Below are positions 21,619-32,540 of a stretch of DNA of 32,540 nucleotides, one piece after another. The DNA is from a virus, in the IMG/VR virus record IMGVR_UViG_3300009488_000045, positions 1 to 32,540 of that record; one strand, given 5' to 3'. The position numbers were made by a program, and so were the translations under genes. The notes beneath the pieces are model-generated. The model did no database searches. It was not told the origin of the DNA and was given only the letters and a program-made list of their open reading frames with translations. Numbering within the stretch: position 1 is the stretch's first letter; the number at the start of each line of letters is the position of its first letter.

Positions 21619-21783
21619 TTGATACCTCCTGCGTTAACACAAGCTCCTCCGTTTCAATGACTTCAGTTTCTGAAGCCGCATTATAAGGGAAATACTGAAA
21701 AAATACAAGCGGGCTATCCCCTGTTTCAAAATGATACACTACCGATCGTCAAGTAGGTGTTCGTTAAACTCTTTCTCAATCAT
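21551..21783 (-). CDS. Small protein apparently split by a frameshift
   Basis: A 14-codon ORF (MIEKEFNEHLLDDR) starts at 21783, coupled to the decarboxylase stop by ATGA and preceded by GGGAGG. Its TAG at 21739-21741 overlaps a GTG that opens a 62-codon frame (VYHFETGDSPLVFFQYF..., ending KREKDA). One extra G near 21741 would fuse them into a continuous 77-residue protein reading LLDDR-V-VYHFETG. So this is a recent frameshift, a base-calling error, or a coupled pair. Function unknown. Confidence 0.45.
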
Positions 21784-22193
21784 TCGTTCCTCCCATACTT
21801 AAGCAATTTCGGGAGGTGAGGAAATCCCATGCCGTCTATGCCTCTCTCCAGCACATAGAAGGCATAAACCTCAATATTGAATGAATTCAGGATGAAGGAC
21901 AAAACCTTGGAGGCATCGAAGGGAAGGCAGCTAAATATATCAATGTAGGCAAAGCCTTCCCTCTCCTGAGTTTCCGATGGGAAAGTGTGAACAACGATAC
22001 CAGATTCTCCTAGGAATTGGACTGCTGATAGTGCTGTGCCCTCTTTATGGGGGAAAGGAAAGTCAACCACAGTTGGCTCTCCAAAAGGAGTCATATTAGC
22101 AACTTCAGCAGCCTTTCTAAGCCATAATTTTAAGGATAGGATGTTCACCAGTAAGTCTTCGTTCTTGCTCCATCCATCAATTATCAGGTGCAT
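21780..22193 (-). CDS. speD: S-adenosylmethionine decarboxylase family protein (SpeD/SpeH-like)
   Basis: A 137-residue protein matching bacterial class 1B AdoMet decarboxylase, which self-cleaves to make a pyruvoyl group and supplies decarboxylated AdoMet for spermidine synthesis. It begins MHLIIDGW and carries GES (E63-S64, the cleavage pair) followed by IVVHTFP (H69) and YIDIFSC (C89). These correspond to the Ser, His and Cys active-site residues of the T. maritima enzyme (S63, H68, C83). FDASKVLSFILNSF follows as in the family. No spermidine synthase is adjacent. Some SpeD homologues instead decarboxylate ornithine or arginine, so substrate is open. It sits right after the holin-like gene. 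Confidence 0.82.
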   Translation of the reverse strand: MHLIIDGWSKNEDLLVNILSLKLWLRKAAEVANMTPFGEPTVVDFPFPHKEGTALSAVQFLGESGIVVHTFPSETQEREGFAYIDIFSCLPFDASKVLSFILNSFNIEVYAFYVLERGIDGMGFPHLPKLLKYGRNE

Positions 22194-24216: not shown

Positions 24217-24245
24217 ATTATAGTGGATAGTTCCTTATATGTCAA
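24217..24245 (-). promoter_or_regulatory. Perfect sigma-70 promoter of the HNH gene
   Basis: TTGACA, 17 nt, TATAAT on the minus strand. The -35 overlaps the hub stop codon (TTTTGACA). A start 7 nt after the -10 falls on the A of the ATG at 24210, predicting a leaderless message. Confidence 0.75.
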
Positions 24246-26389
24246 AAGGCTAGGCGGCTTGTTATCCCCAACGCACTTGTTCCCAGAATCCAATACTCGT
24301 AATCATCAGATCTCGTTAGTGTCCACCAACAGCGATGTATCGTTCCACCATCTGAGATTTCGTGTTCCATCTTGTCGATGTGGAACTCATCGTCAATATG
24401 ATACTCTGCATTTTGCAGGGTTATCCTATCCGATAGCTTTCTGGCTAATATCTGAGTAAGGACAGCATCGGAGCGGTTTATCAAGCTCACCCGATATCCC
24501 GGGATGGATTCCTTTTTGATTGCTAGTTGGTAATCTGCCAGTCCCTGCATTATGTCGGCGGATTGATAATAAGGGAGGTCTATCTTGAGGTCCCGTAATT
24601 GATAGCGTTCTTGTGACTCGGTATCCTCAGCCGTTATCTCCAATGGACCCAAGTCGGTGTAAATCTTACCCCGTATCTTCAACAGGGTTAAATAAAGGGA
24701 AGTAGCAGCCCCATTAGTCACTTCCAGCTTTGCCGATCCTGCAAATATGGTTTCCACCACAGTGACATCGGCCGTCCTATCGGCACCTGAGCCATCTATG
24801 TTGTCATTACCCAGATAATCAGTAGTGGCCGCAGGAGCCACTACATCACCCGCTATATTGCGCATCCCGTTGGCATCGGCAAACCATGGCCAATAGATGC
24901 GGGCTTCACCAGCTTCTAACTGTGGGGAATCTGGAACAGGATTATCTTTGTTCTCTGGGAACTTCCATAAATCAGATAATGCAAGTGCTATCACCTTTGG
25001 CTGTGCCGTGATGATGATGTTATTCCTCACCGACTTCAATGAGTTGGTGGGTTCGATGGTCCTGCTCAAATCAGTGGTACACGTCCACTGGCTAACCGTA
25101 TGTGGTGCTAATAGGCAATGATGGCGGTCCTCCCAATTCAAATAACCTCTACCGTCCACATAGCAGAAGCCATACTCGGAAGCCTCTATTTTCTGTAGGA
25201 AATCCAAGGCTGGCTGGCGCTGAGCGTGAACCAACGGATAAGTATCTATCCCCGTATCAATCACCCGCTTCACGGCGTGCCACCCCGCTCTATCAAGAGC
25301 TGTATTGTAGAGTTCTCCTGACAGTTTATCCACCTGTAAAGCCATGCTAATCTTAGCCCTTATGAGCTGGTCGAATCCATCCACACACGGCAAGAAAGCC
25401 TCTAGTTTGTTCTTGGCTGGATAAGGGATAACATCATCTAGGAATCCCTCAAATAGATTATAGGTCGTGCCGTCGAAGGTTGCCTTGATTCTCACTGGTC
25501 TGGCTGGAAGCAAATACCCATACAATACCGAGTCTGTGTTCTCAGGGATGTATTTGCCATTGGGGTCAACAACCATCAACCGACAGGTCCCGGGTTCGGC
25601 TTTGTCTAGGTCTGTGTCCCTTCCTCTACTGTATTTGATAGACTTGACATCCCCCGTAATTGGCGCTAATAGGGCATCTTCCGCCACCACCTCTGCTGCT
25701 GTCATGGCAACATCCGAATGAATCCGTACTTCATCTATAAAACCATCAAAGGTTCTCCCACCAGCAACTGCATTATTCCCTATGTATAGATTATTCGCTC
25801 TGTCATCAGACAGTGCTCCAAGCCCTGTAATATCAGATGCTAGAGTAACCAGTTCACCATTCATATACACTTTAATCTCAAGCCCCGCATCTTCGTTATA
25901 AACAATGAAGAAACGGCTCCAAGTATCTATCGGTATATCTACTGGCGTGATAACATCGGCAGTTCTGACTGCATGAAAAATTTTAAGATGCAATGCCACA
26001 AAACCGACAGCTTCACCTTGAACATAAAAGTGGTAGCCATTATTTTTATGGAATACTCTCCCGAAGTTTCCTTCACCATCACTCCTCGGATAGATGATAA
26101 ACTCCCAAGTCATTTCCGTAATGCCAAAGCAAGCGATACTGTTATCAGTCCCACAATCTACAGAGTCATCAACCCCATCAAACTCACCCGCAAACCCACC
26201 GGGGAGATAACCCTCTACCCAGGTCATACCACCAGCAGCTGTACCATCATTGACACCCATCTCATCAGCGACAACAATACCTTCCCCCTCGTCAAATCTC
26301 CACCAAGCCACACACCCGGCAGGTGGATCAAGCCCTTTCCTCCAGTCTACGGCTACTTCATAAGTAGCAACGGAAGGCGCTATAGCCAT
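24242..26389 (-). CDS. Tail hub/tip protein with inserted LamG-like domain
   Basis: A 715-residue protein placed right after the tape measure, where the distal tail/hub genes lie. Residues 10-18 (YEVAVDWRKG) and 247-305 (DVKSIKYSRGRDTDLDKAE, VDPNGKYIPEN, YGYLLPARPVRI) are the two halves of a known hub N-terminal domain, normally adjacent (VDWN..DG, then V..I..RGRD). Between them, 25-240 form a concanavalin/LamG-like beta sandwich (VAWWRFDEGEG, WEFIIYPRS, IKVYMNGELV, FDGFIDEVRIH). The rest continues as hub beta domains. Overlaps the tape measure stop by 1 nt. The LamG part likely binds surface glycans. Confidence 0.8.
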   Translation of the reverse strand: MAIAPSVATYEVAVDWRKGLDPPAGCVAWWRFDEGEGIVVADEMGVNDGTAAGGMTWVEGYLPGGFAGEFDGVDDSVDCGTDNSIACFGITEMTWEFIIYPRSDGEGNFGRVFHKNNGYHFYVQGEAVGFVALHLKIFHAVRTADVITPVDIPIDTWSRFFIVYNEDAGLEIKVYMNGELVTLASDITGLGALSDDRANNLYIGNNAVAGGRTFDGFIDEVRIHSDVAMTAAEVVAEDALLAPITGDVKSIKYSRGRDTDLDKAEPGTCRLMVVDPNGKYIPENTDSVLYGYLLPARPVRIKATFDGTTYNLFEGFLDDVIPYPAKNKLEAFLPCVDGFDQLIRAKISMALQVDKLSGELYNTALDRAGWHAVKRVIDTGIDTYPLVHAQRQPALDFLQKIEASEYGFCYVDGRGYLNWEDRHHCLLAPHTVSQWTCTTDLSRTIEPTNSLKSVRNNIIITAQPKVIALALSDLWKFPENKDNPVPDSPQLEAGEARIYWPWFADANGMRNIAGDVVAPAATTDYLGNDNIDGSGADRTADVTVVETIFAGSAKLEVTNGAATSLYLTLLKIRGKIYTDLGPLEITAEDTESQERYQLRDLKIDLPYYQSADIMQGLADYQLAIKKESIPGYRVSLINRSDAVLTQILARKLSDRITLQNAEYHIDDEFHIDKMEHEISDGGTIHRCWWTLTRSDDYEYWILGTSALGITSRLAF

Positions 26390-27687
26390 CAGTATTGACC
26401 CTCCCCTAGTCCTATGCGTTGCCTACCCCTCAAGCCCTCCTGCACTACATCCAGAAGCCTCTCTGCCGACTCCCTATCTCCCATCAAATAGTCCACATAG
26501 AGATTCACAGTTACACCGCCTCCACCTGGTCTCCCCCCTACGCCCTCATACCACTCGCCGCCGTGCGCCATAATAGGAACTGGTTCACCGACTGGTCCGG
26601 GAACACGCCCACCATATTTGAAGCTTCGCATCTTACTCCTGATGGCAAAGATGCTCCCAACGATAGCCGCTGCTCCTGCGATTCCTAACCCTATTCCAAT
26701 GAAAGGTATCGGGCCAGCCCATGCCCAAAGCCCAGCTATAGCTGCGACAATGTATTTCCCAGCTGCAATTAACGCCTTGGCACCCGTAATAATAAACTTA
26801 GTCCCAACTTGAGGCAACATAATAAGTAACATTCCTAGTGGTACCATTACCGCTGCCGCAGCCGCCGCAAAACCCATCACTATTTTGGTAAGTAGCGGGA
26901 ATCTTCCCATCAAGTCCTTCACAGGTTTTATCCATTCTGTGAATTGTTCTATCGCCGGCAATATAGCAGGCATCAGATTTTCAGCAATCATTATAGTAAT
27001 GCCCTGGATTGCCTTCTCTAACCGCAACACAGAATCCTTCATTTCCTCTGCCTTGGCTGCTGCCTCTTCGTCAAATACAACCCCAAGTTCGTGGGCCTCT
27101 TGCCTCATTTCAGCAAATGCTTCAGAACCATCGGCAACCATCGGGAGTAGAGATGTGCCCATTCTTGCCCCGAATAAATCCGATGCTGTAGCAGTTCGGA
27201 TAGTGGCATCCTCTACATCACCCAAAGCGGAAAGAACCCTGATAAACTGCTCCTCTGGTGATAGTGATTCTAGTTCCTCATAAGATAACCCGATGCGTTC
27301 AAAGGCTCTGGTATAAGTAACTAGCCCATCTCCTGCATCTACAATAGCCCCGGAGAGGGTACGGCTTGCCTTTTCTATTCCCTGGAGGGAAGTTCCTGAA
27401 AGTTCGGCAGCGTGGCGCAATTCCGATAAAGCAACCGTACCAAAGCCAGTGCGCTTCGCCATCTTGGCAACTTCATCGCCCATGTCAGCGAAGGATTTGA
27501 CCGCCATTATCCCCGTACCCAAAATAGCTCCACCCACACCTATCATGGCACCACCGATGGCTTTGTTATGCTTCATTAAGGTACCTTGCATCTTCCCCAT
27601 CTGGGTGTTGACTTGGGACATCCCCTGCTGGAAGCCCTTCAGATCAGCCCCTATACTAACGAAGAGTTTTCCAATTTCAAGCGCCAT
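26389..27687 (-). CDS. Tail tape measure protein (short)
   Basis: A 432-residue protein. The N-terminus (GKLFVSIGADLKGFQQGMSQ) and the region SFADMGDEVAKMAKRTGFG to SLSPEEQFIRVLSALGD are typical of the phage tail tape measure TP901-type core. Hydrophobic segments lie at about 265-350, matching the membrane-inserted part. The C-terminus (GGRVPGPVGEPVPIMAHGGE) is also characteristic. At roughly 1.5 angstrom per residue it would set a tail of about 65 nm, a short siphovirus tail. It starts 11 nt inside the GT chaperone 3' end. Confidence 0.88.
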   Translation of the reverse strand: MALEIGKLFVSIGADLKGFQQGMSQVNTQMGKMQGTLMKHNKAIGGAMIGVGGAILGTGIMAVKSFADMGDEVAKMAKRTGFGTVALSELRHAAELSGTSLQGIEKASRTLSGAIVDAGDGLVTYTRAFERIGLSYEELESLSPEEQFIRVLSALGDVEDATIRTATASDLFGARMGTSLLPMVADGSEAFAEMRQEAHELGVVFDEEAAAKAEEMKDSVLRLEKAIQGITIMIAENLMPAILPAIEQFTEWIKPVKDLMGRFPLLTKIVMGFAAAAAAVMVPLGMLLIMLPQVGTKFIITGAKALIAAGKYIVAAIAGLWAWAGPIPFIGIGLGIAGAAAIVGSIFAIRSKMRSFKYGGRVPGPVGEPVPIMAHGGEWYEGVGGRPGGGGVTVNLYVDYLMGDRESAERLLDVVQEGLRGRQRIGLGEGQY

Positions 27688-28317: not shown

Positions 28318-29064
28318 TCACGGTCTGATAATATACAGCGTGTAGGATTTCGGCGCCTGGTTCGTCACCGTCACCGTGACAGTGAAAGTGGTGATGGTGT
28401 CCGCTAAACCCAGCGGCAGAGCGCCCGACTCCGTGTCGTCAAGCAGGTCTGTCTCATGGTCGTTGAAGCTGTTGTGTGCAACGATAAAGGCTGCGGTGTT
28501 GTGGTCTACCTCTAATGTAATCGTACCAGAAGCCGTATTTACCACATAGCTGTAAACATAGGTTGCACCTGCAAACGGTGTTGGAACACCCGTCACAACT
28601 GCTGGCCCCGTTATTTCCCTGACAATCAGGTCCGTAATGTCAGCAGATGCCGTCACGCCCAGGGTGGGTTTAGCCGTCACTTTGATAGTGGCGGAGAATG
28701 TCAACCTGTCGTCCTTAACCGCACCTGTCTCGAATGCTGTCACCAAGCCCTTGAATGTCCAGGTCGTGCCTGTTGATGTTGGGAAGGTGATGGTGAAGTC
28801 CTGAACAGTGCGAGCCAACATATCTACGGTTAGCCCTATCTGACCGTTGGTGTCGCCTGGGTAGAAACTACCCTCGATAGTCACCTCGCCACCATCCAGC
28901 ATCCCTCCAATAAACTCTTTGAAGTTATTAGGCGATAGCAAATTCGAGGAATCTATCGTATCCAAAGACATTTTCGGTCCTACTATGGAGTTGACTTCCG
29001 CAATGGTATTGGCCCCTCTTTCCAGATAAGTGGTCATTGCGCTTACTGCTGATGTTACTACCAT
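28318..29064 (-). CDS. Major tail tube protein with C-terminal Ig-like domain
   Basis: A 248-residue protein. Residues 1-150 fit a siphovirus tube protein (TTYLERGANTIAEVNSIVGP, NFKEFIGGMLDGGEVTIEGS, FTITFPTSTGTTWTFKGLVT, ATIKVTAKPTLGVTAS), which stacks as hexamers. Residues 155-248 form an added beta-sandwich similar to cadherin-like/Ig domains of tail proteins (PAVVTGVPTPFAGATYVYSY, ending SYTLYIIRP). Such domains decorate the tail surface. Strong AAAGGAGGTAAA ribosome site. Confidence 0.85.
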   Translation of the reverse strand: MVVTSAVSAMTTYLERGANTIAEVNSIVGPKMSLDTIDSSNLLSPNNFKEFIGGMLDGGEVTIEGSFYPGDTNGQIGLTVDMLARTVQDFTITFPTSTGTTWTFKGLVTAFETGAVKDDRLTFSATIKVTAKPTLGVTASADITDLIVREITGPAVVTGVPTPFAGATYVYSYVVNTASGTITLEVDHNTAAFIVAHNSFNDHETDLLDDTESGALPLGLADTITTFTVTVTVTNQAPKSYTLYIIRP

Positions 29065-29085: not shown

Positions 29086-31269
29086 TTATTCTATATGCCA
29101 GATTGTAAAATCTATAGGGATGTAGTAGAACCTCGTTTGGGGTTCGTACATCGCTATCTCATTGACTTTGACGGAACTTTGAATTTCCACAAGGTGAATC
29201 GTGCCCATGTAATCATCTAATGCTACCCTTATCTCCTCTGCAAGTTCTACCGCCACCGCATATGTCTCGGCCCATGCTGTGAATTGAAAGCGAGGGTAAG
29301 ATAGACCAGAGAAACCCCTAAGAGAATATATTCTAGGGGTGAACATCCTGGTATAGGTAATAGCGGGTAATGTCGGGTTTGGCGGAAGTACCAAAGGATA
29401 AACATGGGCACCTGCTATTGTGGCGGCATTCACCAAGATAGCGTTTAAAGCTCTTTCCAAATAGGCTTTCGTTGAGAAATATGTTTCTGCACTCCAGGCG
29501 GACCAGCCCACAAGGTTCTTATGCCTCACATGCCAGTAATAAGTAGTGCCTCGGTCGAGCACAGTTAACACGCCGCTGGGAAGAGTGACGGTAATTAGGT
29601 TAATAGCATCGTCTCCAGAATCATAGACAGGTGCAGAATAATCTCCTGATGTAGTGGTTACTTGCCACTGTGAGGATGTGTGGGCAAAATCCCCTGAATA
29701 AGCGGAGGATTCCAGAGTCGGGGTCAGGATTTGCCTTACAGCCCCAGCGGATGGAGCTACATTAGTCGGCTGGTCGGGTACAGTAACCGTATCGAACGAA
29801 GTCTCGATAGACCAATCGGACCAATTACCGCTATCGGTATCCCGATGCCTTACGTGCCAATAGTAGTTCGTGGTATAAGCCAAAGTTCCCCCGGGAACGG
29901 TAAGGGTAGTAAGATTGACAGCATCAACACCGCTATCATAGACCATATTGGGAAGTGTATAATCCCCGGACACGGTGGTGACTTGCCACTGGGCAGCGGA
30001 CTGAGTCGGCCCAGGCGTTGTATTGCCCTCGATGGTTCTGGTTTGCAGAAAGCCATCGCTGCCAGCACATCTATAGAAGATAGCCCGTACATCTGGCCAA
30101 GAATAGGCTGTCGATACCAAGGGTGCCACAAGAGCCACGCCACCACTACCATCAGCCGGGGAAGTATTGGTAGGGGCACCGGGATCAACTCTGCTGACTA
30201 TATGGGGATATGAAGAAGCATCAACACCATCAAGAGCCACCTCAGAAATAAAGGCATTAGTAATAATACCAGCATTGGAAATCTCAAAGGTATGTATAGC
30301 GTTGGCACCAGCAGCAGTCGCGTGGATAGCACAGATGACCTTGCCGTCCCTGGCCACATTGGGGTCGATGATAATAGCGTGGGGATAGCCCCCATATGTA
30401 GGCTCGTATTCCCAAACATCAATATGGGGAATAGTAATAACCCCGGCATCCGAGATGCTATAAGTAATTACAAAGCCGTCCAGGTCATCACCTACCCACA
30501 CAATGGCATAGACATCGCCATCTATGGGCAATACGGTAGCTGCCCGGTGCTGTAGCTCGTTGTAGATATTCCTTGTCTGGATGCGCCCACCAACACCGGC
30601 AATAGCAGGGAGGGTCCCGTCATCGAGAATATAGAAAGTGAAAAGCAATCCTCTTGCAATGCTATCATGGTATGTTATGCCATAAACGGTATCATATCTG
30701 TGGAATAGTCCAGGGAAAATGCCTTCCGTGGTGTCAAACTCCCAGGTGTCGAGTGCCACATTATCTATGGTGCCATCGTTATTGATGGTAATGGTCGTTA
30801 CCCAGCCATCATTGGCTGGATCGGTATGGGCAACGGCAAAGATGTTAGCGGCATTAGCAACTTTAATTATGCTCGGATTGAATGTCTGGTTGCCAGTTGC
30901 CCCAGAGAGAAGTTGGCTATCAATGAGGGCACCGCCAAGATTCCCAGCAGAGTCAACCGTGAAGGTCAACACAAACGAGCCATCAGCTCCAGCGCCATCG
31001 TTTTTCAGGTAGGCAATCGCCCAGACATCACCATCAACATGGATAAGACCCCCAGGTGAGCCTGCGGTAAAGTCCACATATTTCTGGCTGTCAACCGCAG
31101 CGACAACGCCCAGAGGAGATACCGTTACCGTGACAACATAAAGACCATCAGGACCTCGGGTGCAAACCATGAAGACATCGCCGCCGATGCATACCGCCCT
31201 AGTATGGTAAATATCGGCATCCATCCACTCCAGGGTGTTGATTATTGCACTGATATCGCCAATCGCCAC
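29086..31269 (-). CDS. Beta-propeller/fibronectin-like protein fused to a tail terminator domain
   Basis: A 727-residue protein in one open frame. Residues 1-355 hold repeated blades with the pattern GxVYxIxY..DGxxxTFxIxxxGxI (GDVWAIAYLKN, GDVYAIVWVGDDLDGFVITY), a propeller-like ectodomain. Two fibronectin-type repeats follow (about 361-495 and 496-597), each with SQWQVTT.SGDY, YDSG and YYWHVRH. Residues 598-727 (KAYLERALNAILVNAATIAG, LPAITYTRM, FQFTAWAETYAVAVELAEEI, FYYIPIDFTIWH) match the DUF3168 tail terminator, usually a stand-alone gene of about 130 residues in exactly this slot. So the tail completion ring carries a large ectodomain. Confidence 0.75.
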   Translation of the reverse strand: MAIGDISAIINTLEWMDADIYHTRAVCIGGDVFMVCTRGPDGLYVVTVTVSPLGVVAAVDSQKYVDFTAGSPGGLIHVDGDVWAIAYLKNDGAGADGSFVLTFTVDSAGNLGGALIDSQLLSGATGNQTFNPSIIKVANAANIFAVAHTDPANDGWVTTITINNDGTIDNVALDTWEFDTTEGIFPGLFHRYDTVYGITYHDSIARGLLFTFYILDDGTLPAIAGVGGRIQTRNIYNELQHRAATVLPIDGDVYAIVWVGDDLDGFVITYSISDAGVITIPHIDVWEYEPTYGGYPHAIIIDPNVARDGKVICAIHATAAGANAIHTFEISNAGIITNAFISEVALDGVDASSYPHIVSRVDPGAPTNTSPADGSGGVALVAPLVSTAYSWPDVRAIFYRCAGSDGFLQTRTIEGNTTPGPTQSAAQWQVTTVSGDYTLPNMVYDSGVDAVNLTTLTVPGGTLAYTTNYYWHVRHRDTDSGNWSDWSIETSFDTVTVPDQPTNVAPSAGAVRQILTPTLESSAYSGDFAHTSSQWQVTTTSGDYSAPVYDSGDDAINLITVTLPSGVLTVLDRGTTYYWHVRHKNLVGWSAWSAETYFSTKAYLERALNAILVNAATIAGAHVYPLVLPPNPTLPAITYTRMFTPRIYSLRGFSGLSYPRFQFTAWAETYAVAVELAEEIRVALDDYMGTIHLVEIQSSVKVNEIAMYEPQTRFYYIPIDFTIWHIE

Positions 31270-31712
31270 TAGGGCACACTCCTTAAAACATCCTTCAAAG
31301 CCTGTCCTATTTCCTTCTGAACTTTCTCACGGTTTTCATCGTATGCAGGCCTGAGATAGCCTGCTGGCGCCTTTCTGCTACCTCCGTATTCAATCTTGGA
31401 AGCATATTCCAAATCAGTTCCTACTAATAGCTCTACCGATGTGCTGGTTTTTGCTCCCTTGCCTATATCCCCAAATGTCCTAGTGTTCTTCGGGTGGTTA
31501 GGATTCCAACTCGGAGTTAAGGCAGTGAATCCACCGATATGAAGGGAGCGGCTCAAAGTCCCCGTAACTTTCGGGCATTTCTCTTTGGCGGCATTTGCAA
31601 CCAAGAAAGCACCTGCGGCAACGGCAGCTTCCAACTTACCCATAAGTTTATCGCCCAGTTTCTCCAGGTTCCGCATCAATTCCTCGCTACCTAATATCTT
31701 GTACTCTGCCAT
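31269..31712 (-). CDS. HK97 gp10-like tail/neck protein
   Basis: A 147-residue protein with the gp10 family layout: ELMRNLEKLGDKLMGKLEAA, then FLVANAAKEKCPKVTGTLSR SLHIGG, VELLVGTDLEYASKIEYGG and AGYLRPAYDENREKVQKEIG. The GTLxxSI...YAxxxEyG..xaxPFLRPA pattern is diagnostic. It helps join head and tail and lies between head closure and tail terminator as usual. It overlaps the terminator fusion by 1 nt. Confidence 0.88.
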   Translation of the reverse strand: MAEYKILGSEELMRNLEKLGDKLMGKLEAAVAAGAFLVANAAKEKCPKVTGTLSRSLHIGGFTALTPSWNPNHPKNTRTFGDIGKGAKTSTSVELLVGTDLEYASKIEYGGSRKAPAGYLRPAYDENREKVQKEIGQALKDVLRSVP

Positions 31713-31718
31713 AGTTCC

Positions 31719-32273
31719 TCATACATGGAAATGATACCTGAAGCTTATCTCGCAGGTTGCCCCCGCATTCTCGCATTTCATTCGGTAGTATATAGTTTCA
31801 CCCGCTGTAATCCTCGGAGCCCTCACCCTAATGAACTGTACGGCAGCGAGAAACTTCACATTGCCCGCTAGGAATCGATGAGATGAAACCTTTATCTTGG
31901 CAGCCCCCTGCGCAACTTCAAGGATAAAGACCTTATCTTTCACGGAGAGGTCTTCAATCAGCAATCCTGATATGTGCCCATCCTGTGTAGCAAATATAGA
32001 GGAGAAGGTTTCACCAGTAACATCTACTACAACCTCAGCCCATGCGCCGAATGTGTCTGCCACACCGCCTGCTGTAAAGGTGATTTTCCTGTTTGAATCA
32101 TCTGGGAAGAGTTCTGAGTCATGTTGCGACTCTAATATGAGTTCATTGGTGTCAACTAAGATTGCAGTGGTATCAACCTGAAGTGCGGTAGTATCTACAA
32201 GAATCGCAGCAGTGTTGACAACGATAGCATCCCAAGCCGCCTTGAGTGCTGCATATATGTACTTATTGAGCAT
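31719..32273 (-). CDS. Neck-region protein with heptad repeats and beta domain
   Basis: A 184-residue protein. Residues 18-50 contain four tandem heptads of the form V-D/N-T-T-A-I-L, also visible as 21-nt repeats in the DNA (about 32143-32225), predicting a short trimeric coiled coil. Residues 55-184 form a beta-sandwich (NRKITFTAGGVADTFGAW, VFILEVAQGAAKIKVSSH, IYYRMKCENAGATCEISFRY). The overall design is like a small fibre or head/neck decoration. The slot between head closure and gp10 normally holds no such gene. Function inferred from design only. Confidence 0.65.
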   Translation of the reverse strand: MLNKYIYAALKAAWDAIVVNTAAILVDTTALQVDTTAILVDTNELILESQHDSELFPDDSNRKITFTAGGVADTFGAWAEVVVDVTGETFSSIFATQDGHISGLLIEDLSVKDKVFILEVAQGAAKIKVSSHRFLAGNVKFLAAVQFIRVRAPRITAGETIYYRMKCENAGATCEISFRYHFHV

Positions 32274-32540
32274 TATCCCACCACCCTCACGGTCAGTCTT
32301 GTCATTATGCTGTGGCTATCCACCTCCACCAAGAGGATATCGTAAATTTGCCCACTTATAACAACCCGCATCCAAGGAATGATAGTGGGATAGTAACCCG
32401 CTATCGCTATAGTATGGGTCGAAATAGCTATAGTCATGTCGGGTTGTTTAATCTCTCTTCCACCTTTCGGGGCTATGGCGCAATCTAGAGAAACATGGCT
32501 GGGGAAGTTTATCCAGGTCGGTTGAGGTTGCCCAAACTCA
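32273..32540 (-). CDS. Head closure/head-tail joining protein (partial, N-terminus outside window)
   Basis: I translated this from the right edge; it is open upstream and ends at 32273-32275 (TAATG overlap with the next start). The last 89 residues include TWINFPSHVSLDCAIAPKGG, PWMRVVISGQIYDILLVEVD and MTRLTVRVVG. The strand pattern G-x-x-Y-D-I-L...V...D with a C-terminal beta strand fits the SPP1 gp16/HK97 gp9 type head-tail joining family, which caps the portal/adaptor after packaging. Confidence 0.75.
   Translation of the reverse strand, partial: EFGQPQPTWINFPSHVSLDCAIAPKGGREIKQPDMTIAISTHTIAIAGYYPTIIPWMRVVISGQIYDILLVEVDSHSIMTRLTVRVVG

Follow-up and report, generated by a model that had tools for sequence, protein, structure and literature searches.

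A phage tail terminator preceded by a 600-residue repeat and Fn3 region as a candidate six-armed attachment device of the neck

Introduction

The tail terminator of phages is usually regarded as a small housekeeping ring. In IMG/VR virus record IMGVR_UViG_3300009488_000045, a linear record of 32,540 nt (32.5 kb) from an uncultured phage, one minus-strand frame places a terminator-like segment at the end of a protein of 727 aa. An earlier note on this DNA had read the frame as a tail terminator fused to an ectodomain of about 600 residues, made up of propeller-like blades and two fibronectin-like repeats. The locus thus raises the question of whether the terminator is genuine, what the residues that precede it are, and what such a protein would do in the virion. 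Throughout, "the window" denotes the whole 32,540-nt stretch.

Results

The fused gene (29086–31269, minus strand) is indeed a single uninterrupted frame, running for 727 codons from a GTG start with zero internal stops; 746 open codons separate the stops that flank it. The GTG is preceded by a Shine-Dalgarno motif, AAGGAG, whose end lies 9 nt upstream, and the start of the gene overlaps the stop of the upstream gene by one base. The encoded protein consists of a repeat module, two Fn3 domains, and a tail terminator domain, in that order.

The record ends inside the head genes, with an apparently MuF-like gene at 1–578 and a stopper at 32273–32540 (head completion/stopper gene, 32273–32539). 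The end opposite the stopper carries the truncated, apparently MuF-like gene, together with a terminase match and a weak one to portal. The record therefore lacks part of the head-gene region: it has these portal and terminase matches but not the capsid genes. From the stopper onward, the gene order is a 184-aa heptad-repeat protein (31719–32273, minus), an HK97 gp10-like tail-completion/Neck1-type gene (31269–31712, minus; PF04883, E 5.3e-10; phrog_5, E 1.5e-20), the fused gene, the major tail tube gene (28318–29064, minus; PF16461, E 1.8e-12; phrog_158, E 3.3e-16), presumed chaperones, the tape measure gene (26389–27687, minus; phrog_8462, E 6.7e-44), and a 715-aa protein (24242–26389, minus). 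The fused gene therefore lies between the Neck1-type and tail tube genes, which is the standard position of the tail terminator. Among the tail genes scanned in the window, no match to a contractile sheath was found. The phage record also carries an S-adenosylmethionine decarboxylase-like gene (21780–22193, minus; PF02675, E 1.2e-16).

Residues 601–727 (29089–29469, minus) were assigned to the terminator by both family and predicted fold. The tail terminator family phrog_347 matches residues 606–725 (E 2.6e-11), and PF11367 (Tail_completion_gp17), which we take to be the former DUF3168 named in the earlier note, matches residues 615–725 with an E-value of 6.2e-5 and 23.6 bits, just under the cut-off of 24.5 bits; two relatives lie above that cut-off (35.4 bits for contig L026 and 30.7 bits for contig L011). 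A profile built from 33 sequences of relatives, the window protein among them, scores this protein at about 141 bits over residues 603–727 and nothing in the rest of the window above 3.5 bits. The AlphaFold model of residues 598–727 has a mean pLDDT of 95 and a pTM of 0.87, and almost all PDB matches listed for it by Foldseek and VIA-align are tail terminators or tail caps. The best of these is the terminator of RcGTA (6tba_4A; Z = 15.6, rmsd of 2.5 Å over 127 residues), followed by those of Bxb1 (Z = 14.4), T5 p142 (Z = 13.6), and lambda gpU (Z = 12.7), so that the check proposed earlier, whether the C-terminal 130 or so residues fold like terminators, has come out in favor of the idea. By family assignment and predicted fold, the C-terminal domain is a genuine tail terminator, and the earlier description of a terminator fused to an ectodomain is borne out to the extent that 600 residues precede it. 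A separate terminator gene, the finding that the earlier note had held would count against its reading, was not detected by a profile scan of this linear record, which lacks part of the head-gene region; in some phages the tail terminator may sit elsewhere than in its usual slot (PMC12474359).

The N-terminal module (residues 1–362; 30184–31269, minus) consists of six beta-type repeats of ∼56 residues with the pattern G-D-V-Y-A-I ... V-x-T-F-x-I-x-x-x-G-x-I. Their self-similarity score of 354 was reached by none of 300 shuffles (mean 3.8, sd 13). Searches of Pfam found no match for the region, those of PHROGs none that was significant, and those of PDB sequences none that was credible, and a wider search for relatives of the module in phages, viral contigs, Pfam, PHROGs, PDB, and 12 Fn3-bearing genomes returned none. 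In the full-length model, most of the region falls below a pLDDT of 50. The repeats are thus statistically solid, but with no matching family and such low model confidence a propeller fold is plausible rather than established; of the "propeller-like blades" claimed previously, the blades stand as repeats far above chance and the propeller does not yet.

The two fibronectin-like repeats proposed for this protein were both recovered. Residues 363–497 (29779–30183, minus) form the first Fn3-like domain, delimited by alignment and containing an internal insert, in which residues 418–494 match the Pfam family Ig_Rha78A_N (E 2.4e-8). Residues 498–600 (29470–29778, minus) form the second domain, which has an Fn3 fold and matches Pur_ac_phosph_N over residues 531–598, below the cut-off. 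Foldseek matches the Fn3 region to the Fn3 pairs of neogenin, DCC, and LAR.

Using the tape measure protein as the query, we collected 23 related viral contigs, in most of which the terminator slot is occupied by a free protein of ∼120–145 aa, in keeping with the statement that the terminator is normally a free protein of about 130 residues. A search with the terminator alignment yielded 68 loci, in which the terminator is again almost always free and the preceding gene is usually 100–175 aa long. The sister phage L011 shares the tube (42%), a chaperone (49%), and the tape measure (36%) with the window and yet has a bare terminator of 126 aa, indicating that the N-terminal arm is accessory.

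Two other contigs carry different arms in the same slot, giving three examples in all of an Fn3-terminator design (the window, L003, and L026). In L003, the terminator slot holds a single 464-aa frame (L003:4456–5850) made up of three parts: an N-domain of 200 aa, for which Pfam gave no match, a single Fn3 domain, and a C-terminal segment. By alignment, its Fn3 domain is 60% identical to the second Fn3 domain of the window protein, and that of L026 is 49% identical, making this domain an adapter common to the three. The C-terminal segment of L003 has a homologue (E 3e-24) in the free protein of 171 aa that fills this slot in L015, and a profile comparison with the PF11367 alignment found no significant similarity. 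Because of its slot and its free homologue, and not its sequence family, we presume this segment to be a second terminator, unrelated to that of the window. In L026, a 321-aa protein combines a different beta-type domain with Fn3 and aligns to the window protein through residue 623, after which the terminator continues in the next frame; the arm and cap frames share an ATGA overlap. This terminator is the closest relative found (51% identical over residues 613–727). The residues immediately before the frame change match the terminator helix of the window protein (anchored shuffle P = 0.00075), and the presence of this homologue in the arm frame suggests a broken fusion. For L026 there are three possibilities: an indel has broken a fused gene, the two parts are naturally split, or the sequence contains an error. 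Since its arm and cap lie in different frames, their covalent linkage is not a strictly conserved feature.

A similarity search among the N-terminal modules of the three proteins found none. The L026 arm module is found again in L014 (E 1e-20), in a head-region frame of 709 aa, as expected of a shuffled module; in that frame (L014:1280–3409), the L026-like module is followed by many short GxGxITPxGTL-type repeats. On these comparisons of sequence, the arm is most likely modular, with an Fn3 adapter that links exchangeable modules to the terminator a given phage happens to carry.

Terminators of the family tolerate additions in more than one way: four have an insertion of ∼110 aa, rich in beta structure, before the last strands (L053:1301–2035, L054:3410–4150, L056:1881–2621, and L058:2926–3702), and another has a C-terminal extension of at least 225 aa that runs off its contig (L048:4379–5467). 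Apparent N-terminal extensions of 124–157 aa in L061 and L076–L078 were set aside; they are rich in Arg, Trp, and Ser, contain no extra domain, and look like wrong-frame read-through.

The heptad-repeat gene two genes upstream of the fused gene, a possible second neck decoration, encodes about four heptads of the TAILVDT type together with a C-terminal domain. Pfam and PHROG scans of the 184-aa protein found no family match; part of its C-terminal domain matches a head-region protein of L014 (147–665). Contigs L011 and L026 have no counterpart at the same place, so that the gene is an extra one between the stopper-type and Neck1-type genes. At the other end of the tail cluster, residues 244–715 of the 715-aa protein are conserved, being 49% identical in L003 and also found in L007. 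Its N-terminal laminin-G lectin domain is present in the window and in L026 and missing from the L003 and L007 homologues; this distribution makes the laminin-G domain a second case, in these phages, of a binding module grafted onto an N-terminus.

In bacterial genomes, the window Fn3 region is matched best by Fn3 repeats that belong to Dehalococcoidia and other Chloroflexota proteins, at 48–57% identity; by eye, many of these proteins have an N-terminal hydrophobic leader and some a C-terminal membrane segment. Related tape measure proteins (43% and 36% identical) come from genomes that belong to the same class as a Dehalococcoidia MAG, and these Dehalococcoidia loci, from G025 and G241, carry proteins of ∼136–141 aa in the terminator slot. 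In a phylum-wide draw of Chloroflexota genomes, PF11367 matches over the cut-off lie in open frames of 131–160 aa, and a class-level draw gave one match with an open frame of 258 aa. Long, weak PF11367 matches in Chloroflexota genomes (L184–L186) were rejected as chance, the terminator profile scoring at most 3.6 bits there. The host is probably a Dehalococcoidia or other Chloroflexota cell, and the simplest reading of the Fn3 similarity is an exchange of modules with Chloroflexota host genes, in either direction. For an uncultured phage, this likeness offers a clue to the host.

Discussion

We propose, with a probability of roughly 0.6, that the fused protein is an "evolved" terminator, in which a cap is combined with six outward-pointing neck arms that give attachment to the host surface. 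In this model, the C-terminal 127 residues would form a hexameric cap that attaches the head and brings growth of the tail tube to an end. The N-terminal 600 residues, comprising the repeat module and two Fn3 spacers, would leave the ring from its N-terminal helix, and six arms would stand out at the head-tail joint. Their distal modules would attach reversibly and with low affinity to host surface polymers, helping the tail tip to find its receptor. The copy number of six is inferred from hexameric homologues, terminators being known to form hexamers (PMC11784142), and the arms would presumably lie at the neck and face outward. In roseophage R4C, the main terminator helices are peripheral, and the N-terminal helix lies within the surface touched by the neighboring subunit (PMC10276861).

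That the arms bind the host surface is the most likely function by analogy. Adhesion devices typically consist of variable distal modules on a conserved adapter. In lactococcal phages, neck and tail carbohydrate-binding modules (CBMs) bind host cells (PMC6669499). We prefer reversible host attachment on the strength of these two parallels; since the repeat region has no recognizable relative or confident model, the binding function is argued from analogy. A broader proposal is put forward tentatively, as somewhat short of an even bet: that such proteins make up a modular class of neck adhesins, their interchangeable binding modules being grafted onto terminators of at least two unrelated families by an Fn3 adapter that has been exchanged with Chloroflexota proteins, and that the cap doubles as a six-armed attachment collar for the host.

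A structural role is the likeliest alternative to this scheme. The Fn3 and repeat modules could wrap the neck or brace the head-tail joint as a collar, making no contact with the host, much as the Ig-like domain of the R4C neck adaptor has been interpreted as structural and not adhesive (PMC10276861); the terminator, moreover, occupies the end of the tail next to the head, a long way from the tip. However, one would expect a brace to be conserved, and L011 does without any arm on its terminator, while in L003 and L026 the distal module is swapped for unrelated ones and the adapter stays. We consider a purely structural arm unlikely. The attachment model itself must accommodate an observation on T5, in which an N-terminal His tag kept the terminator monomeric, the N-terminus being part of the subunit interface (PMC11784142); an N-terminal arm could likewise hinder ring formation.

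Alternatively, proteolysis, an internal start, or a frameshift like that of L026 might yield arm and terminator as two polypeptides, leaving an ordinary cap and an arm that is non-covalently held or released. The overlapping frames of L026 are what this would look like, but the terminator-helix homologue in its arm frame points to a broken fusion, L003 and the window have single frames, and neither of the internal starts in the window that might release a free terminator (TTG604 and GTG613) is preceded by a Shine-Dalgarno motif; we find such a separation distinctly improbable. That the fusion is an artefact of assembly or sequencing could be suspected from its occurrence in a single metagenomic record and from extra domains that resemble cellular proteins. 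This suspicion is already largely refuted by the 746 open codons with a good ribosome site ahead of them, and by two other viral contigs that carry this Fn3 domain at the corresponding slot, where its sequence and its partners differ.

Were the terminator shown to be a graft site for large variable surface modules, it would add a class to the decorated virion proteins, as well as an unrecognized place to seek determinants of adsorption and host range; the sister phage L011, with its free terminator, provides a clean comparison. In open-licence papers, we found no description of a terminator fused to Ig, Fn3, propeller, or CBM modules, and a 2022 review places Ig-like domains in five classes of virion protein (fibre, baseplate, tube, capsid, and Hoc), a list from which the terminator is absent (PMC9022992). 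Terminators of the gp17/gpU type (RcGTA Rcc01690, gp8 of entry 9lbn, lambda gpU, and T5 p142) share fold, length, slot, and PF11367/phrog_347 with the C-terminal domain of the window protein, but they are free proteins of about 117–160 aa, whereas that domain is preceded by 600 residues. Additional domains on a terminator fold are known from T4 gp15 and PVC16 of myophages and contractile injection systems; these are reported to contact the contractile sheath or to duplicate the fold (PMC11784142), unlike the N-terminal repeat/Fn3 arm described here.

The principle of grafting is shared with other virion proteins. The tail tube proteins lambda gpV, SPP1 gp17.1*, and T5 pb6 carry Fn3/Ig modules on a conserved structural protein, as in the window, and the evolved Dit and Tal proteins with CBM modules in phages of Gram-positive bacteria likewise combine a core tail protein with adhesion modules (PMC12474359), although at the distal end of the tail rather than at the neck. 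The nearest functional analogue of the arm, going by this comparison, is the neck passage structure (NPS) of lactococcal 936 phages and TP901-1 (ORF51), a large neck appendage with carbohydrate-binding modules that combines a conserved anchor with a variable distal part (PMC6669499, PMC10747895). The window protein is not itself an NPS: an NPS is a protein in its own right, anchored near the adaptor by its N-terminus and bearing CBMs at its C-terminus, whereas here the order of domains is inverted and the anchor that can be recognized, at the C-terminus, would be the terminator.
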